Below are positions 13,786 through 30,920 of a stretch of DNA of 64,000 bases, in pieces. A program made the position numbers and the translations under genes. A model generated the notes under the pieces. That model was not told the DNA's origin. It saw only the letters and a program-made list of their open reading frames with translations, and did not search any database. The DNA is from Acidobacteria bacterium Mor1 (lineage in GTDB: Bacteria; Acidobacteriota; Polarisedimenticolia; Polarisedimenticolales; Polarisedimenticolaceae), in contig CP011806.1 in assembly GCA_001664505.1 (NCBI GenBank), positions 1,579,528 through 1,643,527 on the forward strand, in the 5' to 3' direction. The stretch's first letter is position 1. The number at the start of each line of letters is the position of its first letter.

Positions 13786-14229
13786 TCAGCCGCCGTGGCG
13801 GCCCTTGCCGTTCTGGATGCGGTAGAAGAGCCCGGTCGGATCGTCTTCCAGAAGTTCGAGCTTGCCCACTACCGTGACCCGGCCGGCGCTGTACTCCAGC
13901 GCGCCGTCGAGCTTGATCTCGACCACCGACTCCGGACCGAAATCCACGCAGAAGGTGCAGCCGGCCATCGGGATCCCGGTCAGCAGGAAGTGACTCTGGT
14001 TTTCCGAGGCCTCGTCCAGAGGAAACATGAACCCGGTGATGGTGACCGTGGTGTCCTTGAGGGCCAGCGCCTCTTCGGGCCAGGCGATCTCGTACTCATC
14101 GCCGCCGTCGCCGACAGGCACCCACTGCACCGACGTAAGCGAATCCCAGGGGACCTTGTCGCCGGCCACGGCGGGGACCGCCGCGAACAGCAGGCAGAGG
14201 GTCAGCAGCAGGGAAACAGCTCGGGACAT
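13786..14229 (-). CDS. DUF3299 secreted protein, last gene of the zinc ABC operon
   Basis: The 147-residue protein starts at an ATG with GGAGG just upstream and has a signal peptide (about residues 1-22, ending AVA). The sequence GFMFPLDEASENQSHFLLT, then a Cys-x2-Cys pair (Cys91 and Cys94 in AGCTFCVDFGP), is characteristic of DUF3299. The two Cys and the mature N-terminus suggest a periplasmic metal-binding or redox protein. Family function is not established. As I recall, DUF3299 proteins lie beside a LolD/FtsX-type ABC transporter in the zinc-regulated PA4063-PA4066 region of Pseudomonas aeruginosa, which matches the order here. The gene is last in the zur-znuA-ABC operon, 32 bases after the permease. 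Confidence 0.75.
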   Translation of the reverse strand: MSRAVSLLLTLCLLFAAVPAVAGDKVPWDSLTSVQWVPVGDGGDEYEIAWPEEALALKDTTVTITGFMFPLDEASENQSHFLLTGIPMAGCTFCVDFGPESVVEIKLDGALEYSAGRVTVVGKLELLEDDPTGLFYRIQNGKGRHGG

Positions 14230-14230
14230 C

Positions 14231-14257
14231 CGGGTACCTCCACGCAAGGGGTACCCG
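14231..14257 (-). promoter_or_regulatory. Intercistronic hairpin overlapping the DUF3299 ribosome site
   Basis: CGGGTACC (14231-14238) and GGTACCCG (14250-14257) form a perfect 8-base-pair stem with an 11-base loop. The GGAGG ribosome site of the DUF3299 gene (plus 14237-14241, read on minus) lies partly in the stem. The hairpin could lower or regulate translation of the last gene, or protect the mRNA end. Confidence 0.5.
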
Positions 14258-14261
14258 AACC

Positions 14262-15485
14262 TTAACCTCGGGTCAGAGTTCGCGCAATATCGGTGCGGTA
14301 GGCCTGGATCGCGGGGATCAGCGCCGCGACCACACCGACCGCCGGCGCCAGCAGCACCAGCCACAGCTCCCGCGGGACCCAGAGCGCCCCGGTCAGCTCC
14401 ATTTGCCGGGCTTCCCGGGTCCAGCCGCCGAGGATCTCGGTGGCCAGGTGGCCCAGGGCCATACCCAAGAGGGTCCCCGCCAGGGCCAGGAGCAACCCCT
14501 CGAGCAGCACGTGGATCATCAGCCTGGCCCGGGAGGCGCCGAGGGTGCGCATGATCGCCAGGTCGTAGCGCCGGGAGCGCAGGGCGTTGTAGAGCGAGAT
14601 GAACAGGCTGAGCGCCGCGGTCAGGATCAGGATGCCGCCGAAGGCGCGGATCGCATCGAGGCCGACGCCGAGCAGCGAGAACATCCGCACCGTCTCCTTG
14701 GCCGGCGAGGCCGCCTGCATCGAGGTGTTGTTGTTGACGTAGGGGGGCAGCATCGCGGCGGCCAGAGGCGAGTCGGCGATCAGCAGCGCCGTCAGCTCCC
14801 TTCCTGGGGCCTTCATCTTCGGCATCTTCGTGCCCGGCTTCAGCTGGATCTTCGGTTTCTTCTCTTCGGGCTTCTCGTGGACCGCCCAGACCGTTTCCAC
14901 CGAGGTCAGCAGCACCCGGTCGATCACGCTGCCGGTCGGCTTCAGGATGCCGACGATGCGCAGGTGTTTGTGATCATGGTGATCCCCCTCGCCATGGAGG
15001 CCGTGGGCGCTGAAGATCTCGTCGCCGATCCCCAGGCCGGTCTCGGCGGCGACCCTGGAGCCGAGGACGATCTGCTCGATGCCGTCCCAGAACCCGCCCT
15101 CCGCCAGCTCGGCGCCGTAGAGATCCGCGTAGCCCGGTTCGGTGCCGACGATGCGGAACCCGCGGTAGCTGTCTCCCAGCGCCATGGGCACCGAGGTGAT
15201 CACCCCGTGCATCTCTCGGATCTTCTCCGCCTCTTCCAACGGGATGTTCCCGGTGGGCGTGTCCATGTGGTAGACCGCCGAGAGAATCAGCTGGATCGGG
15301 CTGCCCTTGGCGCCGATGACCACGTTGACCCCACCGGAGTTGCGCTCGAGGTTCTGGCGGAACTGGTGGCTGAACAGCAGCAGCACCACGATGGTGGCCA
15401 CGCCCAGCGCCAGCAGCAGCGTGTTGAGCAGCGTCTCCAGCGGACGGCGCCGGATGTACGAGAAGCTGAGTTCGGCCAGGTTCAT
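14262..15485 (-). CDS. FtsX/MacB-like ABC permease with a His-rich loop
   Basis: The 407-residue protein has one N-terminal membrane helix (about 17-39), a large periplasmic domain (40-275) and three C-terminal helices (about 280-305, 325-350, 370-400), the layout of FtsX-type permeases in LolCDE and MacB systems. LRSRRYDLAIMRTLGASR before the last helices is a family hallmark. Residues 161-174 (HGLHGEGDHHDHKH) in the periplasmic domain hold seven His and suggest metal binding. Such permeases do not pump substrate through a channel but drive periplasmic proteins or lipid transfer. Its start overlaps the ATPase stop (ATGA). The neighbours ZnuA and Zur imply a role under zinc limitation. Confidence 0.85.
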   Translation of the reverse strand: MNLAELSFSYIRRRPLETLLNTLLLALGVATIVVLLLFSHQFRQNLERNSGGVNVVIGAKGSPIQLILSAVYHMDTPTGNIPLEEAEKIREMHGVITSVPMALGDSYRGFRIVGTEPGYADLYGAELAEGGFWDGIEQIVLGSRVAAETGLGIGDEIFSAHGLHGEGDHHDHKHLRIVGILKPTGSVIDRVLLTSVETVWAVHEKPEEKKPKIQLKPGTKMPKMKAPGRELTALLIADSPLAAAMLPPYVNNNTSMQAASPAKETVRMFSLLGVGLDAIRAFGGILILTAALSLFISLYNALRSRRYDLAIMRTLGASRARLMIHVLLEGLLLALAGTLLGMALGHLATEILGGWTREARQMELTGALWVPRELWLVLLAPAVGVVAALIPAIQAYRTDIARTLTRG

Positions 15486-16111
15486 CCCAGATTCACCCGG
15501 CGCTCGAAGCGCTCCTTGACCCGGGTGTCGTGGGTCGCCACCACCAGGGTCGCGCCGCAGGCCTCGGCCTGGCCGAACAGCAGATCCAGCACCTGGCCGC
15601 TGCGCACGTCGTCGAGGCTCGCCGTCGGCTCGTCGGCCAGGATCAGCTTCGGTTCGTTGATCACCGCCCGGGCCAGGGTGACCCGCTGCTGCTCACCGAC
15701 CGAGAGTTCGCTCGGGTAGCGCCCCGCCTTGTCCCGCAGATCGAGCCGGGCGAGCACCGCGTCGGCGACGGCGCCGTCCTGAGACATCCCGGCCATGTAG
15801 CGGGCCAGGAGCAGGTTCTGCTTCACGGTGAGAGTCGCCAGCAGGTGCATCTGCTGGAATACGATTCCGATGTGGCGGCCACGGAAACGGTCGATCTCGC
15901 CGGCACCGATGGAGAGCAGGTCCCGGCCGGCAATCTCGACCTTGCCGGCACTGGGTCGCAGCAACGCCCCGAGAATGTGGAGCAGGGTCGTCTTGCCGCT
16001 GCCCGACAGGCCGAGCACCAGCAGATGCTCCCCCTGCCGCGCCTCGAGAGCGTCCAGCTGCAGCACCGCCTGTCCGTCGTAGCGATGTTCGATCTGACTC
16101 AGGGCAAACAA
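15482..16111 (-). CDS. LolD/MacB-type ABC transporter ATPase
   Basis: This 209-residue nucleotide-binding subunit powers the adjacent permease at the inner membrane. Walker A is GLSGSGKTT (34-42), the signature is LSVGEQQR (136-143) and Walker B with catalytic Glu is LILADEPT (156-163); the switch His is in VVATHD. The start is TTG with AGGAG about 10 bases upstream. The length is typical of LolD-like ATPases, somewhat short. It lies 13 bases after znuA and overlaps the permease gene by four bases. Confidence 0.92.
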   Translation of the reverse strand: MFALSQIEHRYDGQAVLQLDALEARQGEHLLVLGLSGSGKTTLLHILGALLRPSAGKVEIAGRDLLSIGAGEIDRFRGRHIGIVFQQMHLLATLTVKQNLLLARYMAGMSQDGAVADAVLARLDLRDKAGRYPSELSVGEQQRVTLARAVINEPKLILADEPTASLDDVRSGQVLDLLFGQAEACGATLVVATHDTRVKERFERRVNLG

Positions 16112-16124
16112 GGCTGCGCGGCTC

Positions 16125-16982
16125 CTAGAAGGACTCGATCAGGCGGTCGACCACCTGGGGCAGGTTTTCACTCCAGTCCCGGGCCAGCGGGTCGATGGCC
16201 ACCACCTCGCCACCGATATCCTGGGCCACGACCCGCGCGCTGTGTTCGACCATCTGAGGCTGTACGAACACCGTGCGCAGTTGTTCGCTGCGGGCCAACT
16301 CCACCAGTTCCGCAAGCTGCTTGGGGCTGGGCTCCTTCTCCCCTTCCTCGATGGCGGTCTGGATCAGACCGTAGCGGTCGGCCAGATAGCCCCAGGCGGG
16401 GTGGAAGACCAGGAAGCGGCGGCCACGATAGGGCTCGAGTTTGGCCTCGAGCTCTCGGTCGAGGCGGTCGATCTCTTCTAGTACGGCTTCGAGGTTGGTC
16501 GTGAACTCGTCGGCGTGTTCGGGCAAGGCCCGCATCAACGCGTCGCCGCTGCGCCTGGCCAGGGTTGCCGCCGCCCGGGGCGAGACCCACACATGGGGAT
16601 CGTGGTGGTGAAACTCCACCCCTTGGCAGCCGGTGACGATCTCCATGTCGGGATTGGCCGCGACGAAGCGATCATGCCAATCCCCCTCGAAGACCAGGTC
16701 GGGATGGCCGATCTTGATCCAGGCGACCGCCGCCGAGACTTCCTTCATCTGCGCCATGCTCGGCTCGAAGGTGTGGGGGTTCCCCCCAGGCGGGATCATT
16801 ACCTCCACGTCGACCCGGTCGCCGGCGATGCGCTCGACGAAGAACGCCTGGGGTTCGACGGAGACGACGACCACCGGCCGGGTCTCGACGCTGCCGCAGC
16901 CGGCGAGCAGGAGCGCCGCAAACACCGCGGCCACGGTGAGGCACGCCCTGGTGCTGAAGCGCTCAGCCTGCACAGCGATCAC
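16125..16982 (-). CDS. znuA: Zinc/manganese ABC transporter substrate-binding lipoprotein
   Basis: The 285-residue cluster A-I binding protein captures Zn(II), or Mn(II), in the periplasm. A lipobox LLAGC with Cys29 indicates lipid anchoring. Likely ligands are His70 (NPHTFEPS), His130 (HDPHVWVSP), His194 (FHPAWGY) and Asp264 (AIDPLARDW). A three-His patch at 125-127 precedes the second ligand, but the long His-rich loop of many ZnuA proteins is missing. The start is GTG 16982, overlapping the end of the Fur-family gene by 20 bases; GTG 16973 is an alternative. No ZnuB or ZnuC lies beside it, but both are about 7 kb away on the same strand. Confidence 0.9.
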   Translation of the reverse strand: MIAVQAERFSTRACLTVAAVFAALLLAGCGSVETRPVVVVSVEPQAFFVERIAGDRVDVEVMIPPGGNPHTFEPSMAQMKEVSAAVAWIKIGHPDLVFEGDWHDRFVAANPDMEIVTGCQGVEFHHHDPHVWVSPRAAATLARRSGDALMRALPEHADEFTTNLEAVLEEIDRLDRELEAKLEPYRGRRFLVFHPAWGYLADRYGLIQTAIEEGEKEPSPKQLAELVELARSEQLRTVFVQPQMVEHSARVVAQDIGGEVVAIDPLARDWSENLPQVVDRLIESF

Positions 16983-17334
16983 ACCGGCCGTAGAGCACGA
17001 TCTCGTGGGACTCGAGCTCGAAGCCTTCGGGAGACAATTTGCCGATGGCCCCGGGACAGGCGTCGACGTCGTACACCCGGTCGCAACTGCGGCAATGAAA
17101 ATGATGATGGTGCTGCTTGCCGGCCCGCTCGTAGCGGGCCGGGGCGCCGGGCAGCTCCACCGGGCTCAGGAAGCCGCTGGTCGTCAGGGTCTTGACCGCG
17201 CGGTAGACGGTGGCGATGCCCAGGCCGGGGACCTCCCGGCGGGCCTCACGCAGGATTTCCTGGGGGCTCAGGGGCCGAGCGCTGGCCTCGAAGACCCTTC
17301 GGATCGCATCACGCTGGTTGGTCTGCCGCTGCAT
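16963..17334 (-). CDS. zur: Fur family metalloregulator, probably Zur
   Basis: The 123-residue DNA-binding repressor has a winged helix (recognition region about 38-55, GIATVYRAVKTL) and a dimerisation domain. Metal-site residues are obvious: HHHHFHC (75-81), Cys84, and the pair Cys118 and Cys121, the structural zinc site of many Fur and Zur proteins. It is shorter than typical Fur (about 140-150 residues). It leads the operon zur-znuA-ATPase-permease-DUF3299, so it probably represses zinc acquisition when zinc is sufficient. A near-palindromic box lies nine bases upstream of its ATG, suggesting autoregulation. A Fe or Mn sensor is possible, but the context favours zinc. Confidence 0.85.
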   Translation of the reverse strand: MQRQTNQRDAIRRVFEASARPLSPQEILREARREVPGLGIATVYRAVKTLTTSGFLSPVELPGAPARYERAGKQHHHHFHCRSCDRVYDVDACPGAIGKLSPEGFELESHEIVLYGRCDRCAG

Positions 17335-17342
17335 CGACGGAA

Positions 17343-17358
17343 TGATAATCGATTCTCA
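17343..17358. promoter_or_regulatory. Near-palindromic Fur/Zur-like box upstream of zur
   Basis: TGATAATCGATTCTCA reads as TGANAATCGATTNTCA on both strands, so 14 of 16 positions are symmetric. It resembles Fur-family boxes (TGATAAT arms) and sits nine bases upstream of the zur start, inside the expected promoter. Confidence 0.6.
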
Positions 17359-17382
17359 ATACCGAATCCAGAGCCTCCGGCC

Positions 17383-21772: not shown

Positions 21773-22312
21773 GTGACTGACAAACAGCTTCTCGAACGAC
21801 TGAACCTGCTCCAGGGGGATATCACGACGCTTGGCGTCGATGCCGTGGTCAACGCGGCCAACTCCGCATTGAGTGGTGGCGGCGGAGTGGATGGTGCCAT
21901 TCACAGAGCGGCGGGACCGCAACTTCTCGACGCCTGTCGAACCCTTGGTCGCTGCCCTCCCGGAGAGGCTGTCGTAACCGATGGCTTCCAACTACCTGCC
22001 CGCTGGGTGATCCACTCGGTCGGGCCGGTCTGGTATGGCGGCTCCCGCAATGAAACGGGACTACTGTTCCGCACCTATTCCTCGGCGATGGCGCGGGCCA
22101 GAGAGATCGAGGCCAGGAGCATCGCGTTCCCCGCCATCAGCTGTGGTGCGTATCGCTTCCCCGTCTCACTCGCCGCCGAGATCGCCCTTGCCGCGTTGAT
22201 CGAGGAGCTCCGAAATCATCCCGTTCCCGAGTCGATCACGCTATGCAACTACAACCCGGCCGTCCACCGCGCATACCAGAAGGCGCTCGCGGCACACCAG
22301 GAATCCAAGTAG
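21773..22312 (+). CDS. Macrodomain O-acetyl-ADP-ribose deacetylase / ADP-ribosyl hydrolase
   Basis: The 179-residue single macrodomain is of the YmdB/TARG type. It is expected to remove ADP-ribose from proteins or nucleic acids, or to deacetylate O-acetyl-ADP-ribose, in the cytosol. GDITTL (15-20), VVNAANSAL (25-33), the Gly-rich loop GGGGVDGAIHRAAG (35-48) and ISCGAYRFP near residue 122 are all present, so the binding pocket and catalytic Asn/Asp are intact. The GTG start lies eight bases after the antitoxin-like gene, and the stop is immediately followed by the ATG of the next gene. It may antagonise an ADP-ribosylating toxin; none is in the window. Confidence 0.9.
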   Translation: MTDKQLLERLNLLQGDITTLGVDAVVNAANSALSGGGGVDGAIHRAAGPQLLDACRTLGRCPPGEAVVTDGFQLPARWVIHSVGPVWYGGSRNETGLLFRTYSSAMARAREIEARSIAFPAISCGAYRFPVSLAAEIALAALIEELRNHPVPESITLCNYNPAVHRAYQKALAAHQESK

Positions 22313-23107
22313 ATGCTCCCCCTCGATTCACACCGCTGGGGTGAGCTCCGACATGCGTACGGAGGAGCCTCCGACGCGCCGGACATGATTCGCCGGCTAG
22401 TCCAGGCATCGTCCGACGAAGCGTGGGACGAGCTTTTTGGTTACCTGCTCCACCAGGGCGACACCTACACGGCGACCTACGCTGCCGTTCCTCATCTACT
22501 CCAAGCCGCGCGCGAACAGTCGGCAGGCAAACAGGTCCTGTACTGGTCCTTCGTTGGCGGCGTGGCAGTACATGAAGCGCCTACGGAGCTTGCCGCTGAC
22601 ATCCGCACGGCTTACCACCAAGCGCTCGAGGTTGGCCGGGAGTCGCTCCGGCAACTGCTCGAGAGCCATCGCTTCCCGACAATCGAGGCCTTCTATCTGC
22701 TCGAAGCGGCCGCGGCACTTCACGGCCGTAGGGAGATCGCCTGGGCCCTCGGGGGGCTCGCGAACGAGGAGATCGAGTTGGAGTGCCCGTCCTGTGCCGT
22801 GGGGCTCTCTATCGGACCGGACCGAACGGGCCTGAGATACCGAGTCCGGGGGTTGGACATCGCTGGCGCGCCAAGCGTTCCACCAACTCGCATCGAAGTC
22901 GCTCCGACGCACATCGCGCCGACAAAGAGTGCATGCAGTGACTACCGCTGGCTGTTTGGCCTGGCATCTAGCCAGGGCGATGCGAGAGTTCTCCACGGGG
23001 TCCGCGCGCTGTTTGGCAAGGGACCATGCCCTCACTGCAATGCAGCGATCGACATCAATAAAGCGATCGACGAGCCGAGAACGAGAGGTACGAGACTTGA
23101 GCGATGA
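22313..23107 (+). CDS. Immunity-like protein with CPSC and CPHC motifs
   Basis: The 264-residue cytosolic protein starts directly after the macrodomain stop. Its N-terminus LPLDSHRWGELRHAYGGASDAPDMIRRL and HQGDTYTATYAAVPHLL match a helical repeat-like family often found near polymorphic-toxin immunity genes and in clusters of orphan immunity proteins. CPSC (about residues 163-166) and CPHC (about 243-246) could form one four-Cys zinc site, perhaps closing the fold. No enzyme motif is visible. It overlaps the next gene by 11 bases. Confidence 0.6.
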   Translation: MLPLDSHRWGELRHAYGGASDAPDMIRRLVQASSDEAWDELFGYLLHQGDTYTATYAAVPHLLQAAREQSAGKQVLYWSFVGGVAVHEAPTELAADIRTAYHQALEVGRESLRQLLESHRFPTIEAFYLLEAAAALHGRREIAWALGGLANEEIELECPSCAVGLSIGPDRTGLRYRVRGLDIAGAPSVPPTRIEVAPTHIAPTKSACSDYRWLFGLASSQGDARVLHGVRALFGKGPCPHCNAAIDINKAIDEPRTRGTRLER

Positions 23108-23681
23108 AGGGCACCCCAGCAGCGCTTCCGGGCCGGAGAGCACCTTCGATCTCCTCGACCGGGTCCGCGCGCGGCCGCACATGTTCGTTCGACAGGGGCG
23201 ATTGGAGGAACTCGAGGCAATGCTCTGGGGGTTCGAGTATGCATTGCTTACACGTGGAATCGTTAACCCCTTGCCGTCGATGATGCAATCGGGTTTTTCG
23301 CAATGGCTGCGACTCAAGTACCGCTGGAGCCTCTCTGCAGGTTGGGCCTACGCAATCCAAGCCCATGCAGCACCAGGACAGTCATCTATCGACTTGTTCT
23401 TCGAGCTCTTCGCCCAGTATCGTGAGCTCAGCAAGACCGTCGAGCTTGAGCTTACCCTCTCTCCCCACCACCAACCCTCTGACGAGATGGACCGCCCGGA
23501 AAAGGTCCAGGTCCTGCGCTATCGACCTGAGCCACTACACATAATCCGTCTGTTCTATCCGCACCGAATCGAAGAGACGTGCGTCAGCGGACCAAATGCG
23601 GAAGAGGCAACGAAACTGCGCGACGCAATCGATTGGCTCACCAGGCGGCTCGGCATCCAAGAACAGGATTTCGAGGACTAG
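23097..23681 (+). CDS. Immunity-like protein with an RPxMF motif
   Basis: TTG at 23097 with GAGAGG just upstream gives 194 residues, overlapping the previous gene by 11 bases. LLDRVRARPHMFVRQGRLEELEAMLWGFEYAL resembles the RPxMYLG-type N-terminus of small proteins common in immunity clusters. An aromatic-rich middle and an acidic C-terminus follow. Overlap with the preceding gene argues that the two products work together. No signal peptide or membrane helix is present. Function is inferred from context. Confidence 0.6.
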   Translation: MSDEGHPSSASGPESTFDLLDRVRARPHMFVRQGRLEELEAMLWGFEYALLTRGIVNPLPSMMQSGFSQWLRLKYRWSLSAGWAYAIQAHAAPGQSSIDLFFELFAQYRELSKTVELELTLSPHHQPSDEMDRPEKVQVLRYRPEPLHIIRLFYPHRIEETCVSGPNAEEATKLRDAIDWLTRRLGIQEQDFED

Positions 23682-23728
23682 TCAGCGCGCGCTACACACG
23701 CCGGACAGGGGCTGGCGCGCCCATTGGT

Positions 23729-24544
23729 TCAACGCTGACGGACGGCCTTCGCACCGCTGCTCAACCCGTACAGCACCGCCGCGATCAGGATGATCAGCGG
23801 CCCGGTGGGCACGTTAACCTCGGACAGCGCGTACGCCGCGAACAAGCCCGTCGTGCAGCAGAAGGCGCCGATCAACGTCGCCAGCAGCATCATGCCGCCG
23901 ATGTTGCGCGCCCACTGGCGGGCGATCGAGGCAGGGATGGTCAGCAAGGCGATCACCAGGATCACCCCGACCACGCGGATCAGCGTCACCACCGCAAGGG
24001 ACGTCAGTAGGTAGAGGAGCTGACGGATGAAGGTCACCGGCACACCGGCGACCCGGGCGTGATCCTCGTCGAAGGCGACGGCCAGCAACTCCTTGCGGAA
24101 CAGGCCGACGACGCAGACCACGAACACATCCAGCGCGCCGACGAAGGTCAGGTAACCCTCGGGCACGAACAGGATGCTGCCGAACAGGTAGCTCATCAGG
24201 TCCGGGGCGTAGCCCGGCGACAGCGAGATGAACAGCATGCCCAGGGCCATGCCCACCGACCAGACCATGGCGATCAGGGTGTCCACTCCGGTGCGCAGCC
24301 GCTGCTCCAGCACGCCGATACCGAAACCCGAGGCGATGGCAAAGACCGCGGCACCCGCCATCGGCTGCACGCCCATCAGATAGCCGAGCCCGACCCCGCC
24401 GAAGGCCGCGTGGGACAGCCCCCCGGAGATCGACGCCATCCGCTTGACCACCACGTAGGTACCGACCACGCCACAGGCCACACTTGCCAGCAGCCCTGCC
24501 GTCAACGCACGCTGGAAGAACGGGTACTGGAGCGCTTCGAGCAC
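23729..24544 (-). CDS. znuB: Zinc/manganese ABC transporter permease
   Basis: The 271-residue inner-membrane subunit of a cluster A-I metal importer has seven to eight hydrophobic segments. VKRMASISGGLSHAAFGGVGLGYL (about 34-57) is the family hallmark, and the ATPase-coupling loop is near DEDHARVAGVPV. It starts at GTG immediately after the znuC stop and is the last gene of the five-gene operon. It must pair with ZnuC next door, and most plausibly with the ZnuA encoded at 16125-16982. The metal could also be manganese or iron; Zn is favoured by the neighbours. Confidence 0.92.
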   Translation of the reverse strand: MLEALQYPFFQRALTAGLLASVACGVVGTYVVVKRMASISGGLSHAAFGGVGLGYLMGVQPMAGAAVFAIASGFGIGVLEQRLRTGVDTLIAMVWSVGMALGMLFISLSPGYAPDLMSYLFGSILFVPEGYLTFVGALDVFVVCVVGLFRKELLAVAFDEDHARVAGVPVTFIRQLLYLLTSLAVVTLIRVVGVILVIALLTIPASIARQWARNIGGMMLLATLIGAFCCTTGLFAAYALSEVNVPTGPLIILIAAVLYGLSSGAKAVRQR

Positions 24545-25306
24545 CTAGCCCTCCGCCTCGGCCGAGGCGCCATCCCGGGACGTCGAGGGCGCTGCGGCGT
24601 AGCCGTAGACATGCTCCAGCATCTCAGGGGTCACCCCGCCTGCCGGATGGAAGTGCACTCGCCTGTTGAGACACGCGATGCTGTCGACGTACTGCGACAC
24701 CAGCGCCACATCATGGGCCACCAGCACCACGGTCATGGTCTCGCTCAGTTCTTTCAACAGCGGGTAGAGCCGGCCGCCGAAATGCGAATCCAACGCGGCA
24801 TTGGGTTCGTCCAGCATCAGGATCCGGGCGTCCATGGCCAGGGCCCGGGCGATCAGCACCCGCTGGAGCTGGCCTCCCGAGAGCCGGCCGATCTGCCGGT
24901 CGGCGAAGGGAGAAACTTCCATCCGCTCCATGGCCTCGGCGGCCCGGGCACGATCGGCATCATCGTATCGGCGGGTCAGGCCTCGGTTGCCCAGACGGCC
25001 CATCAGCACCACGTCGCACACGGTGATCGGGAAGCTGCGGTCGAAGCTCGATTGCTGAGGCAGGTAGGCCACATCCCCCCGAGCGCGCTCGGGAGGCTCT
25101 CCATAGATCGCAACGGAACCACGGTCCGGCTTCCACAGACCCAACATCACCCGCAGCAGCACACTCTTGCCGCCGCCGTTGGGACCGATGATGCCGAGGA
25201 AACTCCCCTCGGCTACGGTGAAGCTGACCTCCTCGAGTACAGGCGTGCGAGCGATGGAAAGCGAGACGTCGCGGACCTCGATGGCCGGGCGGTCAGCGGC
25301 CGCCAT
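24545..25306 (-). CDS. znuC: Zinc/manganese ABC transporter ATPase
   Basis: The 253-residue ATPase powers ZnuB. Walker A is GPNGGGKSV, the signature is LSGGQLQRV, Walker B with catalytic Glu is ILMLDEPNAALD, and the switch His is in VLVAHDVALV. LPQQSSFDRSFPITVCDVVLMGR is typical of this subfamily. I choose ATG 25306, which has AGGA eight bases upstream; GTG 25321 in frame is an alternative. Either start overlaps the upstream HflK-like gene, implying coupled translation. The C-terminal region has a short tail (HFHPAGG) that could bind metal. Confidence 0.92.
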   Translation of the reverse strand: MAAADRPAIEVRDVSLSIARTPVLEEVSFTVAEGSFLGIIGPNGGGKSVLLRVMLGLWKPDRGSVAIYGEPPERARGDVAYLPQQSSFDRSFPITVCDVVLMGRLGNRGLTRRYDDADRARAAEAMERMEVSPFADRQIGRLSGGQLQRVLIARALAMDARILMLDEPNAALDSHFGGRLYPLLKELSETMTVVLVAHDVALVSQYVDSIACLNRRVHFHPAGGVTPEMLEHVYGYAAAPSTSRDGASAEAEG

Positions 25307-26330
25307 CGTTCCGGTCCTCACGGGGCGTCAGCCCGAATAGCCCCGAGGAGGGAACTCTGAGGGGCGCCTCCTCGGCCGGGGCCGGGCGTGGCTGGGTCAG
25401 GTTGACCTCGATGTCCGGTTTCTGTCCCGGCGCCAACAGCACCACCCGGGCCCGCGGAAGCACCGTGCGCACCATGTCCAGGAACAGATCATTGCGGGCC
25501 TGGCCCGGAATCGCCCGGTTGCGGGCCAGCACGCTACGGAAGCGTTGGGCAGCGCCGCGAGCGCTCTCGGTCCGTGCCTTGGCCGCGGCGTTGGCCTCCG
25601 AAAGCAGGCGCCCGGCCTCACCCCGTGCCAGCGACACGGTTCGTCCACGCTCACTCTCGGCGTCGTTGATCAACCGCGCGGCCTCGGCCCGGGCATCGCT
25701 GACGCTGCGGAAGGCGGTCGCGGCTTCCACCGGCGGGCTGACCGACTGCAGGTTGAGGGAGACGACGGTGATGCCGGCGTCGTAGCGGTCCATCGCCTCC
25801 TGGGCGTGGCGCCGCACCTCGTTTTCGATCTCCGCCTTGCCGGCAGTCAGCACGTCGTCGATCTGCATTCCGGCGACCCGCTCCACCAACCCGGCGCGAA
25901 CCGCCTGAGCCAGGAGCGCGGACGCGTCGTCCACCCCGAACAGGTATCGTCCGAGGCCGGTGATCTTGTACTGGGCTACCAGCCGCACATCGATCACGTT
26001 CTCGTCGCCGGTCAGCAGGGACAGCTCCGGCAACTGGTCGCCGCGAATCTCGAGGCTCTGCACCTCGCCGGTGGGCGCTCGCTCGACCCGGTAGATCGGA
26101 CCCAGCGCCAGCCCCCAACCCGGCTCGACGGCGTCGTCGACCAGCTTGCCCATCCGCAGGAGCGCCCCGCTCTCGGACACGCCCACGGTGTAGAACCCGG
26201 ACATCGCCCAGACGGCGAGCACCACCCCGAGCAAGCCGATCCCGGCGACGCCGCGATGGCGCCCCAGGAATTCCGCCGCGCCCCGAATCAGGCGCACGCT
26301 CAGCGGAGAGTTTGCCGGCTCACTTGCCAC
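25293..26330 (-). CDS. hflK: HflK-like SPFH/band 7 protein
   Basis: The 345-residue protein has a single membrane helix (about 26-47) and a periplasmic SPFH domain with the HflK hallmark LTGDENVIDVRLVAQYKI. A long Ala/Arg/Glu-rich helix follows (about 215-275). A Pro-rich C-terminus overlaps znuC. HflK and HflC form a cage around the FtsH protease in other bacteria; no ftsH is in this window. It starts at GTG, overlapping the hflC gene end by 11 bases. Its position between hflC and znuC links this scaffold to metal uptake here. Confidence 0.85.
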   Translation of the reverse strand: MASEPANSPLSVRLIRGAAEFLGRHRGVAGIGLLGVVLAVWAMSGFYTVGVSESGALLRMGKLVDDAVEPGWGLALGPIYRVERAPTGEVQSLEIRGDQLPELSLLTGDENVIDVRLVAQYKITGLGRYLFGVDDASALLAQAVRAGLVERVAGMQIDDVLTAGKAEIENEVRRHAQEAMDRYDAGITVVSLNLQSVSPPVEAATAFRSVSDARAEAARLINDAESERGRTVSLARGEAGRLLSEANAAAKARTESARGAAQRFRSVLARNRAIPGQARNDLFLDMVRTVLPRARVVLLAPGQKPDIEVNLTQPRPAPAEEAPLRVPSSGLFGLTPREDRNDGGR

Positions 26331-27192
26331 TCAACACCTTCATCAAGCGGGAATCGGATTCGAGGAAGATCGTGGTCTGGTCGTCGATGATCTTGTCGTA
26401 GCTCTCGAGAGTGCGCAGGAAGCGGTAGAACTCCGGATCCTTGGCGTAGGCCTCACCCAGCTCGGCGAGCGCCGCGGCCTCCCCTTCGCCGCGGATCACC
26501 TCGGCCTCGGCACGAGCGGTGGCCAGGGTTTCCTCACGTTCCTTGGCCGCTTCTGCCTCGATCTTGAGCGCTTCTTCCTCACCCTCACTGCGGTACTTGG
26601 TAGCGATGCGGGCGCGCTCGGCGCGCATGCGGTCGATCACGCTGGCCCGGTTCTGGGCGGGCAGGTTGAAGCCGTTGATCTGCAGGTCGACCACCTCGAG
26701 GCCGAAATCCTTACGGGCGACCTCGTCGACCTCGCGGGCGACGCGGGCGGCCAGGTCCCGCAACCGCACTTTGCCCGGCTCGACGTTGATGAAGCCCTCC
26801 ATCGGTTCGCTACCGACGGCGGCGCCGAGCTTGGCCTGGGAGACATCGAGCAGCCGCGCTTCAGCCTGGCTGCGCGTCTTGACCGTCCGGGCGAAGTGCA
26901 GCGGATCGGCGACCCGCCAGCAGAGGAACGTGTCGACCAGGACGTTCTTCTTGTCCAGGGTCAGGAACTCCATCGGTTCGTTGTCGAAGACCAGGAGCCG
27001 GGAGTCGAGACGCATCACCCGGTCGACCGGCCAGGGCGCCTTGAAGTGCAGGCCCGGGCCCGAAGCCTCCTCGGCCGGTTTACCGAAACGGGTCACGATG
27101 GCCAACTCGGTCTCGTCCACGGTAAAGACCGCGGTCCGCACCCAGAGCAGCACCAGCGCCGCGACGATCAACAATGCCCAGTTGAAGCGCAT
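26320..27192 (-). CDS. hflC: HflC-like SPFH/band 7 protein
   Basis: The 290-residue protein has an N-terminal membrane helix (about 5-22) and an SPFH domain with ETELAIVTRFGKP and GPGLHFKAPWPVD. The signature helix VIDRMRAERARIATKYRSEG and the end DPEFYRFLRTLESYDKI are diagnostic for HflC. It lies 11 bases after the permease-SPFH fusion and overlaps the HflK gene. In E. coli HflC partners HflK; here there are two HflK-like partners, one of them fused to a transporter. Confidence 0.9.
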   Translation of the reverse strand: MRFNWALLIVAALVLLWVRTAVFTVDETELAIVTRFGKPAEEASGPGLHFKAPWPVDRVMRLDSRLLVFDNEPMEFLTLDKKNVLVDTFLCWRVADPLHFARTVKTRSQAEARLLDVSQAKLGAAVGSEPMEGFINVEPGKVRLRDLAARVAREVDEVARKDFGLEVVDLQINGFNLPAQNRASVIDRMRAERARIATKYRSEGEEEALKIEAEAAKEREETLATARAEAEVIRGEGEAAALAELGEAYAKDPEFYRFLRTLESYDKIIDDQTTIFLESDSRLMKVLSGK

Positions 27193-27203
27193 AGCTTCCT
27201 CGC

Positions 27204-29414
27204 TCAGTTCTCGTTGTCCGGCGGGAGCGCGGGGCTGTCGCGCCAGAGTACGACCCCCTTGCCCGCCGACCCCGAGGGCAGAATGAACTTTTCCTTGTCG
27301 GCCAACACCCGTTCCGATGTCTCGAGCCAGAGCAGGTCCTTGAGAATGCGCCGATGCCTGGCGTAGACCTCGGCCTGGCGCATGAACCCGCGAGCCTCGC
27401 CGGCCGCGACCTCGGTGGCGGAGTCCGCCTCCGCCCGGGCCCGGGCGATCTCCCGGACCGCCTCGCCCCGCGCCCGGGGTACCACGCCGGCCTGCTGCCG
27501 GCGGGCCTCGTGGATGCGGGTCTCGCGATCCTCCTTGGCGCTCGATACGTCACGGAAGGCGTAGACCGCCTCCTGCGGCGGATGCACGTCGACCACGTGA
27601 ACCGCGTCGATCCGCACCCCGGCGCCCAGCTCCTTGAGCCGGAGACCGGCGTCATCTCGGATGAACGCTTCCAGCTCCGGACGTTTCGACGTCAAAAGCT
27701 GATCCAGGGTGTGCCCGGCGACGAACTCCCGGGCCGATGCCATGGCATAGAGCCGTACGAGATCGGCGCGCTTGCCGACCTTGTAGAAGAAGGCGTAGGG
27801 GTCGTCGAGCCCCCAGTGCACGGTGAAACTCAGCTCGAGCAGCTTCTCGTCGCCGGCGATGTAGCCGGTCTCGTCGGGCTGGGCGTTCATGGCGGCGACG
27901 GGACTGTGCCACTGACTCGGGTCAGCCGACAACCGGAGCTGACGGCGCCGCTCGACCAGGGTCAGGTCGGTGCGGAAGCCGGCGTCGCTCTTGCGCGGGT
28001 AGTCCACGCGGCGCATGGTGAAGCTGCCGAAGGGGGCCGGCGGCACCCAGTGCATGCCCGGGCCGAGGTCCTTCCACGTCACCTTGCCGAACAGCTGACC
28101 GTAGCCGGCGTGGCCCGGCGGCACGATCTGGACACCGCTGGCGGCGTAGATCACCGCGGCGACAACCAAGACCAGGCCCAGCTGACGGGCGCGGCCGCCG
28201 CTGGCAGCCGAGCGGAAGCTCGCCGGCAGCACGGCGGTCAGCGAGTCACGCACCGTGGCCCAACCCTCCCGGGCCACGCCGTGGCGGAAACGCCAGAGCA
28301 CCAGCCCGCCGAGGATCACCCCCGAGAGAATCTCGATCCAGGAATAGCCGTGCTCCATCGCCATCGAGAACCGATCGAGCACCTGCCATCCGGTGACGGC
28401 GATCAGCGCATCGAGAGCCAGGCCGCAGGCCAGCGACCCGAGGATGATGCCGAACAGGAAGGCGCGGACGAAGCCCCGGCCGAAGTTGCGGGTCAGGATC
28501 ACGATCGCCGCAGCGTTGGTCGCCGGTCCGGCCATCAGCATCACCAACGCCGCGCCGGGACTGATCCCCTTGGCGATCAACGCGGCCGCGACCGGAGTCG
28601 AGGCGGAGGCGCAGATGTACATCGGGACCGAAGCCACCAGGATCAGCAGCATCGGCACGATGCCCGAACCGAGGCCCCAAACCGAGAGGTCGTCGGGGAA
28701 CAGCGCCGTGATCAGCGCCGTCAACCCGATGCCGATCACGAGCCAGAAGGCGATATCGTCGAGGAGTTCGGTGAAGGCGTAGCGCCCGGCCCGGCGTACG
28801 ATGGAGCCCAACGCCGGCGGCTCCGGCTGACCTTCGACCACCGGCGGGCGGCGGCCGGTGAAGCCGTACCACAGCGCCTTGAGGAAGGTCCCGACTCCGA
28901 CACTCTCCCCGTCGTCATGATCGTGGTCGTGCCCCGCGTGGGAATCCTCGCCGCTCTTGCAGCAATGGTCCGGCTCCTCGACCTCCTGGGCGCGGGCCGC
29001 CTCCCCGGGCCAGGCGATGGCCAGGATGCTGGCCCCGATGGCGGTGACCAGACTGGCCACCGGGCGGACGATGGCCATCAGCGGACCCATCAGGCCCCAG
29101 GTCAACAGGATCGAGTCGGCTCCCGACTCGGGCGTCGTGATCAGGAAGGAGAGGGAGGCCGGCTTGCTGGCGCCCTTCTTCTTGAGCTCGATGGCCAGGG
29201 GCACCACGCCGCAGCTACAGATCGGTAGCGGCACGCCGAACACCGCAGCCCGGGCTGCCGAGAGCAGCCCCTCGCCTCCCATCCAGCGTTGGATCGCCTG
29301 CCGCGGCAGCAAGACGTGCAGGAACCCGGCGGCGGTCAGGCCGAGCAAGACGTACGGCGCCGCCAGAAGAAAGACGTTCAACGCGGCGGCCAGGATGGTC
29401 CAGACGAGCTGCAA
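27204..29414 (-). CDS. SO_0444-type Cu/Zn efflux permease fused to an HflK-like SPFH domain
   Basis: One 736-residue frame holds two domains. Residues 1-380 are a DUF318/YraQ-type permease of the SO_0444 Cu/Zn efflux type: two helical bundles, PLPICSCG (64-71, Cys66 and Cys68), FLITTPESGADSIL, and the second-half motif MYICASASTPVAAALI (265-280). The cytosolic or periplasmic linker between bundles carries Cys151, Cys152 and a His/Asp run HAGHDHDHDD (159-168). After a helix at 411-427, residues 430-640 form an SPFH domain with GPGMHWVPPAPFG and ARGEAVREIARARAEADSAT-like helix. The start is TTG. It is first in an operon with hflC, hflK, znuC and znuB. The predicted role is metal export anchored to an SPFH microdomain. 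Confidence 0.85.
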   Translation of the reverse strand: MQLVWTILAAALNVFLLAAPYVLLGLTAAGFLHVLLPRQAIQRWMGGEGLLSAARAAVFGVPLPICSCGVVPLAIELKKKGASKPASLSFLITTPESGADSILLTWGLMGPLMAIVRPVASLVTAIGASILAIAWPGEAARAQEVEEPDHCCKSGEDSHAGHDHDHDDGESVGVGTFLKALWYGFTGRRPPVVEGQPEPPALGSIVRRAGRYAFTELLDDIAFWLVIGIGLTALITALFPDDLSVWGLGSGIVPMLLILVASVPMYICASASTPVAAALIAKGISPGAALVMLMAGPATNAAAIVILTRNFGRGFVRAFLFGIILGSLACGLALDALIAVTGWQVLDRFSMAMEHGYSWIEILSGVILGGLVLWRFRHGVAREGWATVRDSLTAVLPASFRSAASGGRARQLGLVLVVAAVIYAASGVQIVPPGHAGYGQLFGKVTWKDLGPGMHWVPPAPFGSFTMRRVDYPRKSDAGFRTDLTLVERRRQLRLSADPSQWHSPVAAMNAQPDETGYIAGDEKLLELSFTVHWGLDDPYAFFYKVGKRADLVRLYAMASAREFVAGHTLDQLLTSKRPELEAFIRDDAGLRLKELGAGVRIDAVHVVDVHPPQEAVYAFRDVSSAKEDRETRIHEARRQQAGVVPRARGEAVREIARARAEADSATEVAAGEARGFMRQAEVYARHRRILKDLLWLETSERVLADKEKFILPSGSAGKGVVLWRDSPALPPDNEN

Positions 29415-29535
29415 GCGACTTTGCCTATCTGCCGTAAATCAAGAGAGCAAAGGAGTTTATAACATGTGCCCCAGCAGCGCGCGATGCACGCCTCGGCCCC
29501 TAGGCGCCCCGCCTGCCGAAAAAGTTCCAATCCCG

Positions 29536-29567
29536 GAGAACAGGACCCCGCCGGCCGGGGTTCTCCC
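29536..29567. other. Inverted repeat in the znu/spondin intergenic region
   Basis: GGAGAAC (29536-29542) pairs with GTTCTCC (29561-29567), and an inner CCCC/GGGG can extend the hairpin. It lies between the minus-strand fusion gene and the plus-strand spondin-like gene. The role is unknown; an operator or a transcript hairpin is possible. Confidence 0.35.
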
Positions 29568-29590
29568 CGCCCGACACGGCAATGAAAAAC

Positions 29591-29604
29591 GGGAGCGCGC
29601 TCCC
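29591..29604. promoter_or_regulatory. Perfect 14-base palindrome upstream of the spondin-like gene
   Basis: GGGAGCGCGCTCCC is fully symmetric and ends 25 bases before the ATG at 29630. It may be an operator or, in the mRNA, a hairpin near the ribosome site. Confidence 0.35.
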
Positions 29605-29629
29605 CCTATGCACCCTAGGAGAGATTCCG

Positions 29630-30304
29630 ATGAACCGAGGAATAAAGGTCGCGATCGTGGCGTTCGCTTTGATGGTTGGATTCAGCGCCATGGCGGCGGA
29701 GTTCGAGGTCGAGATCACCAACATCACCCGAGGACAGACCTTCACGCCGATCCTGGTCGTGGCCCACGACCCGGATATCGCCCTGTTCAAAGTCGGTGAG
29801 CCCGCGCTTCCGGAGCTCGCCGAACTGGCCGAGTCCGGCGCCACCGGCCCCCTCGACGCTTTGCTGAACACCCTGCCCCAGGTCGGCGCCACCGCCGCGG
29901 GCACCGGGCTGCTCGGCCCCGGCGAGACCACCACCATCGTCGTCGACGCCGGCGGCAAGTTCAACCAGATCAGCTTCGCCGGCATGCTGATCCCGACCAA
30001 CGACACCTTCGTCGCCATCGACAGCGTGCGCATCCCTCAGGGGAACCAGCGCAAGGAGGTGTACGCCATCGCCTACGACGCCGGCAGTGAAGCCAACGAC
30101 CAGGATTGCGTCAACATGCCGGGCCCCCGCTGCCCCGGTGGACAGGGCTCGTCGGAGCCGGCCGACAGCGATGAAGGCTATGTCTATGTCGGCAACGGTT
30201 TCCACACCCTGCCGCAAAACGAAGGCGAGACGATTCTCGGGCCGCTGGTCTACGACTGGAGAAACCCGGTCGCCCGCGTGAAGATCAGCCGCGTCCGCAA
30301 GTAA
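29630..30304 (+). CDS. Secreted spondin_N-domain protein
   Basis: The ATG at 29630 follows AGGAGAG and gives 224 residues with a clean signal peptide (about 1-22, AMA-AE). An in-frame ATG at 29582 has no ribosome site. FEVEITNITRGQTFTPILVVAHDPDIALF and the Leu/Ala-rich LPELAELAESGATGPL match bacterial spondin N-terminal domain proteins, which are exported and may bind calcium or the cell surface. The C-terminal part has a Cys pair (DCVNMPGPRC). It is followed by an ECF sigma/anti-sigma pair 70 bases downstream on the same strand. Confidence 0.8.
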   Translation: MNRGIKVAIVAFALMVGFSAMAAEFEVEITNITRGQTFTPILVVAHDPDIALFKVGEPALPELAELAESGATGPLDALLNTLPQVGATAAGTGLLGPGETTTIVVDAGGKFNQISFAGMLIPTNDTFVAIDSVRIPQGNQRKEVYAIAYDAGSEANDQDCVNMPGPRCPGGQGSSEPADSDEGYVYVGNGFHTLPQNEGETILGPLVYDWRNPVARVKISRVRK

Positions 30305-30374
30305 GTAGTTTTTGAAACGCCCGGCGGCGCGAATCCGTGCCGCCGGGTTCGACCGATCTAGAGGGGATACCGGC

Positions 30375-30920
30375 TTGGCCACAGCGGCCGAAATGCGAAC
30401 CGACTTCGAGCGCACGGCCATGCCGTGCGTCCCGTCGTTGGCGCGGGCCGCTCGACGCTTCAGCCCCGGCGGAGACCCCGATGATCTGGTCCAGGAGACG
30501 CTGCTCAAGGCCTTCCGCACCTACGGAAACTTCAAGCACGGTACGAATTGCAAGGCCTGGCTCTTCTCCATCCTGCGCTCGGTGGTTCTGAATCAGAAGC
30601 GCAGTCACGTCCGCAAGCCTCCGATGGAGTCGATCGGCGGCCCGGACGAAAAGGAGGCGGTGATGCCCCTTGCTTCCAACGAAGGTCGCGGCGAAGATCG
30701 TCGTCGCGACGAGGTCCGCGAGGCCTTCTCGCGGCTCGATGCCGACCTGCGCTGGATCCTGCTGCTGGTCGATGTCGAAGAGTTTTCCTACGCGGAGGTC
30801 GGCCGCATTCTCGACTGCCCCGTCGGAACGGTTTCATCCAGGGTCTACCGGGCCCGCCAGTCCCTGCAGGACCAACTGCAGTCGCTGGGCGGCCCGCGAC
30901 CCCAGGTACATCCTCGATGA
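30375..30920 (+). CDS. ECF RNA polymerase sigma factor
   Basis: I choose TTG 30375 (GAGGGG eight bases upstream), giving 181 residues; an upstream TTG at 30312 or the ATG at 30393 are alternatives. Region 2 is DPDDLVQETLLKAFRTYGNF, and region 4 with its helix-turn-helix is YAEVGRILDCPVGTVSSRVYRAR. The linker between them is long and charged. It directs transcription of a stress or envelope regulon. Its stop overlaps the ATG of the anti-sigma gene (ATGA), the usual co-translated pair. Confidence 0.9.
   Translation: MATAAEMRTDFERTAMPCVPSLARAARRFSPGGDPDDLVQETLLKAFRTYGNFKHGTNCKAWLFSILRSVVLNQKRSHVRKPPMESIGGPDEKEAVMPLASNEGRGEDRRRDEVREAFSRLDADLRWILLLVDVEEFSYAEVGRILDCPVGTVSSRVYRARQSLQDQLQSLGGPRPQVHPR

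Follow-up and report, generated by a model that had tools for sequence, protein, structure and literature searches.

What brings genes for zinc uptake, metal efflux and HflK/HflC-like SPFH proteins together in one operon? The question is raised by positions 23729-29414 of a 64,000-nucleotide stretch of Acidobacteria bacterium Mor1 (contig CP011806.1, positions 1,579,528 to 1,643,527; hereafter the window), where an earlier note on this DNA described five tightly packed minus-strand genes for ZnuBC, efflux and three SPFH proteins. Open reading frame (ORF) coordinates bear out this near-gapless packing, with junctions from a 29-base overlap to an 11-base gap (gap 11, overlap 11, overlap 29 and gap 0 for genes 1/2, 2/3, 3/4 and 4/5, the 3/4 overlap being 14 if gene 4 truly starts at ATG 25306). 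The efflux and SPFH contents had been read correctly as well, except that they occupy three genes only, the efflux protein and the first SPFH protein being one polypeptide, such that the order is exporter-SPFH fusion, HflC-like, HflK-like, ZnuC-like and ZnuB-like. The adjacency of HflK/C to ZnuBC, which the note had called unusual, proved real and recurrent, but the key feature of the locus is the covalent fusion of exporter and SPFH, Znu genes adjoining only 4 of 21 distinct ArsP-type loci.

29414-27204, minus strand: gene 1, 736 aa, TTG start, ArsP_1 permease fused to SPFH
27192-26320, minus strand: gene 2, 290 aa, HflC-like SPFH protein
26330-25293, minus strand: gene 3, 345 aa, HflK-like SPFH protein
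25321-24545, minus strand: gene 4, 258 aa, ZnuC/AztA-like ABC ATPase
24544-23729, minus strand: gene 5, 271 aa, ZnuB/AztB-like ABC-3 permease

A metal permease joined to an SPFH domain

Gene 1 is a single open frame in which an SO_0444/ArsP_1 permease is followed by a transmembrane anchor, an HflK-like SPFH part and a long C-terminal helix. Both halves score over their Pfam cut-offs (ArsP_1, PF03773, 113 bits at residues 14-333; Band_7, 60.7 bits at residues 430-640), and residues 12-373 pass the curated cut-off of 300 for NF033936, the SO_0444 family of Cu/Zn efflux permeases, with 356.5 bits, Cu/Zn export being what the family name suggests. Usual members of this family stop after the permease (L045, 389 aa; L049, 382 aa), whereas gene 1 adds about 330 residues of SPFH. 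Because it scores 115.2 bits against TIGR01933 (HflK), under the cut-off of 159.4, we class this SPFH part, as judged from sequence, as HflK-like and outside the HflK family proper.

28416..29375, minus strand: ArsP_1 permease part, residues 14-333, with CSC motif C66-S67-C68 (Pfam)
28903..28970, minus strand: His/Cys-rich mid-permease loop, about residues 149-171 (from translation)
27495..28127, minus strand: SPFH (Band_7) domain, residues 430-640, predicted to be periplasmic
27906..27911, minus strand: W502-H503 of a fusion-only insertion (alignment)
27582..27584, minus strand: H611 of an 'HPP' motif (alignment)

Residues C66, S67, C68 and C268 are invariant across 16 ArsP-type fusions, and the fusions of L108, L109 and L087 carry longer His-rich loops at the matching permease position. 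The AlphaFold model of the window fusion consists of the permease, an anchor helix (407-425), the SPFH domain (428-611) and a further helix (614-686), and a Foldseek search with it returned E. coli HflK/C as top matches (E 1.7e-9).

The two partner genes pass the HflC and HflK models (gene 2, TIGR01932, 195.9 bits, cut-off 134.4; gene 3, TIGR01933, 168.4 bits, cut-off 159.4), and the trio shares with HflK-HflC, the FtsH modulators of the SPFH3 subfamily, the fold of its fused SPFH part and the succession of N-terminal anchor, SPFH domain and long helix. Gene 2 scores 213-357 bits against the HflC proteins of other exporter trios versus 155 against the canonical HflC of its own genome. Separate canonical hflK/hflC-like genes lie near 3.08 Mb in Mor1, and most trio genomes checked carry further hflC-type genes; because these are kept elsewhere in the genomes, the trio is an addition to canonical hflKC.

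With partners of this kind, one could read the trio as quality control, bringing FtsH or shielding the pump so that metal status decides whether exporter and ZnuB are degraded or protected. The earlier note raised such FtsH-mediated turnover, and also rapid switching between import and export, as possible outcomes of co-production; both are conjecture. The HflC-/HflK-like nature of the genes is in keeping with this, as is the caging of FtsH by E. coli HflKC described in the parts covered of PMC12048511. However, no ftsH was recognised by eye among the printed neighbour sequences of the trio loci, canonical hflKC is retained separately, and a fusion with the pump itself would be a strange route for substrate presentation, making this reading, in our judgement, quite unlikely. 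Unlike HflK-HflC, the trio comprises three SPFH lineages on branches of their own, the first of them fused to a pump, with no ftsH partner seen.

Trios recur across phyla with three exporter families

We propose a family defined as an exporter N-terminally fused to SPFH and followed on the same strand by an HflC-like and then an HflK-like gene, which is the order of the window operon; exporter-less pairs (L186, L191, L193) run instead from HflK to HflC. The SO_0444 family is present in 27 of 60 relatives. In 13 of 14 regions examined the permeases have no SPFH match, and the fourteenth, from a distant relative (G051, locus L042), holds the same fusion with HflC and HflK, without Znu. Searching 396 Acidobacteriota genomes, with fusion rows taken as frames of at least 528 aa spanning the SPFH part, we found that at least 28 hold an exporter-SPFH fusion; in addition to the window, sequence was read for 11 of the 28. 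Among the fusions annotated, the exporter was variously ArsP_1 or a P1B-type ATPase (about 1,050 aa), with a single CDF case (600 aa).

For a view beyond this phylum, the whole genome contig collection was searched with an HflC-like query of 13 sequences that held no exporter sequence, and the best 80 of 464 relatives were kept, a sample centred on the exporter-fused clade from whose loci the query alignment was built. Loci were annotated with exporter, SPFH, ABC and ZnuA queries, and seven whose upstream end is lost to the contig edge (L125, L145, L161, L164, L168, L170, L173) were left out. The SPFH gene upstream of HflC is fused to a metal exporter in 71 of the 73 informative loci, a count that includes L123, L132, L139, L157 and L162, which are the same records as loci of the query alignment. 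Three unrelated exporter families account for the 71: P1B ATPase (33), CDF (25) and ArsP_1 (13). The two loci counted as exceptions are L177, with an in-frame stop between a partial P-type ATPase frame and the SPFH frame, and L107, an HflC/HflK pair without an exporter. As an exporter-less trio L107 was ruled out, its genome (G419) carrying an ArsP-SPFH fusion on another contig (L202), i.e., a split trio.

Pfam finds both halves in every fusion scanned (16/16 ArsP, 27/27 CDF and 18/18 P-type ATPase, the last chosen from the P-type set). By record taxonomy, ArsP-type trios occur in Acidobacteriota, Myxococcota, Binatota, Spirochaetota, Zixiibacteriota and Eiseniibacteriota; CDF-type trios in Eiseniibacteriota, Zixiibacteriota, Chloroflexota, Methylomirabilota, Effluviviacota, Actinomycetota, Pseudomonadota, Deferribacterota and Myxococcota; and P-type ATPase trios in Acidobacteriota (31/33), Armatimonadota and Pseudomonadota. 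The fusion spans at least ten phyla, with the qualification that all 80 records are titled metagenome-assembled genomes and individual placements may be wrong. Genomes in which a trio had already been found were searched specifically, adding L187, L189 and L190; besides L189, its genome (G399, the same as that of L110) also holds an ArsP-type (L188) and a CDF-type (L190) trio. As far as these loci go, the trio partner is always a metal exporter, bar one doubtful case (L189). A plasmid search with the fusion gave 66 records, none covering 80% of it, and the matches listed are separate permeases or HflK.

That the neighbourhood arose by chance, or the fusion from faulty gene calling, was a fair concern while the earlier note rested on one genome. 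With 71 of 73 informative loci fused in that many phyla and both halves recognised in 61/61 scanned members, we hold this to be extremely improbable, and chance neighbourhood was rejected on the recurrence of the arrangement (L087, L183, L187).

The three SPFH positions also keep apart in phylogeny. On a 257-row SPFH tree the positions a (exporter-fused), C and K form separate groups common to all exporter types, needing 2, 1 and 2 changes, respectively, versus about 71 for shuffled labels; group C is one side of a branch with a weak support of 49, group a has two canonical HflK rows next to it, and no single branch splits off K. A tree of the concatenated trio, with 78 rows (a quick method with several long branches, from which L123, L132, L139, L157 and L162 were dropped), needs only 2 changes of exporter label. 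The simplest reading of these trees is one ancient trio whose exporter domain was swapped twice.

Topology and fusion-specific histidines

P-type ATPases have their catalytic part in the cytoplasm, which gives the fusions of this type a fixed point of orientation. Counting hydrophobic segments from GDGxND to the SPFH domain in 32 P-type ATPase fusions (a whole-exporter hydropathy count was too coarse and was replaced; L144 was skipped), we found three in 23, four in 8, where the extra fourth segment is weak, and two in 1. Because three hydrophobic segments separate the SPFH domain from the cytoplasmic GDGxND, the fused SPFH domain is probably periplasmic, and the topology of the window protein is predicted from these P-type ATPase homologues. 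The periplasm is also where such pumps release their metal. In CDF-type fusions the SPFH domain sits where a CDF protein would be expected to have its cytoplasmic domain. HflK/C likewise sit in the periplasm according to the parts covered of PMC2636767.

Fused P1B-type ATPases and CDF exporters retain their catalytic or metal-site motifs and differ from the known families by the added C-terminal SPFH: the former keep CPC, DKTGT and GDGxND, and the latter keep HxxxD in both metal-site helices, a pair that we take to be a zinc-type pattern. We also observed in the P-type ATPase fusions (e.g., L097:3203-6247) an invariant His-Gln in the eighth membrane helix together with CPC in the sixth, and we know of no standard P1B subgroup with this pair.

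Two histidine features mark the fused SPFH domain itself. A W-H or W-xxx-H insertion is found in 70 of 84 fused SPFH rows, against none of the 83 HflK-like trio rows and none of the 6 canonical HflK rows. The HPP histidine (H611 in the window) occurs in 76 of 84 fused rows versus 2 of 83 HflK-like ones. These counts bear on a reading in which the trio is a membrane scaffold that clusters or stabilises exporters and importer in a lipid patch but neither forms an ion compartment nor handles metal through its SPFH part. Such a role would agree with the general description of SPFH proteins as membrane organisers, at least in the parts covered of PMC12005517, and fusion would guarantee placement. 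It leaves unexplained, however, both the histidines specific to the fused SPFH and the three-fold recruitment of metal exporters only, and we consider it unlikely.

Zinc importers beside the trio

Zinc-import and export genes sharing an operon with HflK/C-like genes, as the earlier note had it, hold up in Mor1 and recur elsewhere. The 21 distinct ArsP-type loci, some of them truncated by contig ends (window, L042/L157, L086, L087, L090, L091, L099, L106, L108, L109, L110, L112, L114, L121, L165, L166, L179, L183, L184, L187, L202), include three besides the window in which Znu genes adjoin the trio, so the order is not confined to Mor1. The window has trio-ZnuC-ZnuB; L087, from another Acidobacteriota family, and L187, a Binatia bin, have trio-ZnuA-ZnuC-ZnuB; and L183, an Eisenbacteria bin, has ZnuA-ZnuC-ZnuB-trio, such that ZnuA lies inside the operon in these three and not in Mor1. 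Because there is about one strong ABC-3 gene per genome, four of 21 lies far above the level of random placement, albeit for loci not wholly independent of one another. The gene directly after the trio encodes a ZIP protein in L165 (ArsP type) and in L145, whose exporter is cut off; these were the two candidates tested, and both were confirmed. The fusion, the trio, the exchange of exporters and the linkage to Znu or ZIP genes are all observed, the zinc importers adjoining the trio in several phyla.

Other neighbours go with the other exporters. Many P-type ATPase loci have a membrane protein of about 250 residues directly upstream of the fusion (e.g., L134:6005-6760, L147:6091-6840); the L147 protein weakly matches NicO, a nickel transport family (29.8 bits, cut-off 27.7), and the L134 copy has no Pfam match. 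PpiC-type periplasmic foldase genes were seen directly upstream of some CDF-SPFH fusions (L178:5930-8086, L172:591-2153), and in 14 loci, 13 of them of P-type ATPase type, the gene after the HflK-like one encodes a small protein of about 160 residues whose N terminus holds a hydrophobic segment (e.g., L132:11793-12284, L170:2449-2961; no Pfam match in two tested). Neighbour families were clustered with a crude gene finder, and several clusters are probably spurious frames.

The trio might instead be a general module for Cu, Ni, Co or Cd that mainly detoxifies, with ZnuBC a loose regulon partner in this lineage. This reading shares the cage idea with the zinc-homeostasis unit that we favour and differs in metal and purpose. 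The Cu/Zn name of the permease family, the match of P-type ATPase fusions to both Cd and Cu subfamily models and the NicO and CbiM neighbours all fit it, but importer genes are ill-suited to a detoxification operon, ZnuABC adjoins the trio in three phyla, as ZIP does in two loci, and the CDF fusions have their HxxxD pair. We regard it as possible, if doubtful.

Zinc-uptake genes and a candidate regulator in Mor1

Gene 5 matches ABC-3 (PF00950) with 253.4 bits, as is expected of a ZnuABC permease, and is the sole ABC-3 permease match in the one-contig 5.985-Mb genome, whereas against narrower NCBIfam models it falls below cut-off (AztB 174, cut-off 280; ZnuB 124.1, cut-off 284). Gene 4 scores 102.7 bits against ABC_tran, its best subfamilies being AztA/ZnuC-like (AztA 182.8, cut-off 220; ZnuC 114.4, cut-off 306). 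The pair thus resembles ZnuABC/AztABC in having an ABC-3 permease with a matching ATPase and, within the same window, the one ZnuA of the genome, and departs from them in that permease and ATPase lie in an SPFH-exporter operon about 7 kb from znuA and under the Znu/Azt cut-offs. The ZnuA-like protein, outside the operon, is likely the partner of the ZnuBC pair.

16125..16982, minus strand: ZnuA-like substrate-binding protein, PF01297, 207 bits, sole match in the genome
16963..17334, minus strand: Fur-family regulator (candidate Zur), 123 residues, PF01475, 77.3 bits, its 3' end overlapping the znuA start
29415..29581: operon intergenic leader, containing the window's only ATGTTATA (29458-29465, minus strand)

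The ATGTTATA element, which we take to resemble a Zur half-site, occurs once in the window versus 0.04 expected, a weak observation that was spotted after the fact, and no such half-site was seen again in the printed sequence upstream of related operons. The fur-like gene is preceded by a Fur/Zur-like palindrome (17342-17361); the operon is not. A scan of 23000-30400 for sigma-70-like promoters found 0 versus 0.4 expected, a weak test in a phylum that uses other promoters.

Elsewhere in the window, 13786-17334 forms one minus-strand run of fur-like gene, znuA, an ABC ATPase, a MacB/FtsX-type permease and a small Pfam-unmatched protein; a spondin-domain protein and an ECF-type sigma factor (29582-30920) are transcribed away from the operon; and the ORF at 21773-22312 is presumably macro-domain-like, to judge by a motif.

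A proposed zinc-homeostasis unit

In E. coli, 24 alternating HflK and HflC subunits enclose FtsH in a periplasmic chamber, according to the parts covered of PMC12048511. By homology, the three SPFH subunits of the trio would assemble on the periplasmic side of the inner membrane into a dome resembling that of HflKC, possibly from 8 copies of each to make 24. With an exporter on every 'a' subunit, the pump would be held at the dome, the exporter taking FtsH's place as guest. Ions released periplasmically would pass into or through the cage, where the two fusion-specific histidines might receive or gate the metal. In Mor1, where the metal handled is most likely zinc, it would enter via ZnuABC and leave via the ArsP-type pump, and making the importer together with a caged exporter could keep exported zinc from ZnuA and so avoid a futile cycle; alternatively, exported zinc may be handed to periplasmic or outer-membrane recipients. 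The dome, the compartment and their purpose are what we infer from the homology and gene content.

We give such a unit, an SPFH cage built on a metal exporter that handles zinc in Mor1, about an even chance of being correct. Several observations weigh against it. Assembly of the trio into a dome is argued from homology, and the AlphaFold model is of moderate quality (pLDDT 70.8, pTM 0.48), with the insertion at 492-524 under 50. The W-H insertion is missing in eight ArsP-type and six CDF-type rows, and H611 in 8 of 84 fused SPFH rows. Znu neighbours are a minority among ArsP-type loci, and no Znu permease or ZnuA was found beside 58 CDF or P-type ATPase loci; because P-type ATPase loci often lie near a NicO-like gene instead of Znu, the metal may differ by exporter type. 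The membrane domain joined to the trio SPFH in L189 (L189:2755-8330, genome G399), about 280 residues long, is unrecognised and has no Pfam match, and a separate P-type ATPase gene lies about 50 bases after the HflK-like gene. Within Mor1, gene 4 is below the NCBIfam cut-offs of all 25 families shown, an E. coli-type full Zur palindrome was searched for in the window with none present, and a Zur box at the operon is not demonstrated.

A bolder version has the closed periplasmic SPFH dome serving as a metal-loading compartment, into which zinc brought in by ZnuABC or ZIP would be pumped so as to metallate exported apo-proteins or be handed on. We rate it as improbable; if true, it would be a protein-only bacterial counterpart of eukaryotic secretory-pathway zinc loading, with three unrelated exporters recruited as its engine.

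Relation to known SPFH systems and significance

An SPFH cage around an integral membrane protein has precedents in the stomatin cage with aquaporin-1 (PDB 9zd2) and the HflKC-FtsH cage, as far as the parts covered of these sources go. There the guest is non-covalent, whereas in the trio it would be covalent and a metal exporter. Exporter-SPFH fusions were found described in no title or abstract start, the literature searched leaving subscription papers and preprints largely outside, and the words 'transporter', 'permease', 'P-type' and 'fused' are absent from the parts covered of a survey of prokaryotic SPFH proteins (PMC2636767).

The role of most bacterial SPFH complexes is an open question in the parts covered of PMC12005517, and here one SPFH lineage is tied to a defined cargo, namely three unrelated families of metal exporters, which makes SPFH function directly testable. 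Taken together, our observations suggest a family in which a metal exporter is joined to a ring-forming SPFH protein with two partner SPFH proteins, sometimes with a zinc importer, and in which export may proceed into a cage; were exported metal to end up in that cage, this would amount to a new mode of metal handling in the bacterial periplasm.

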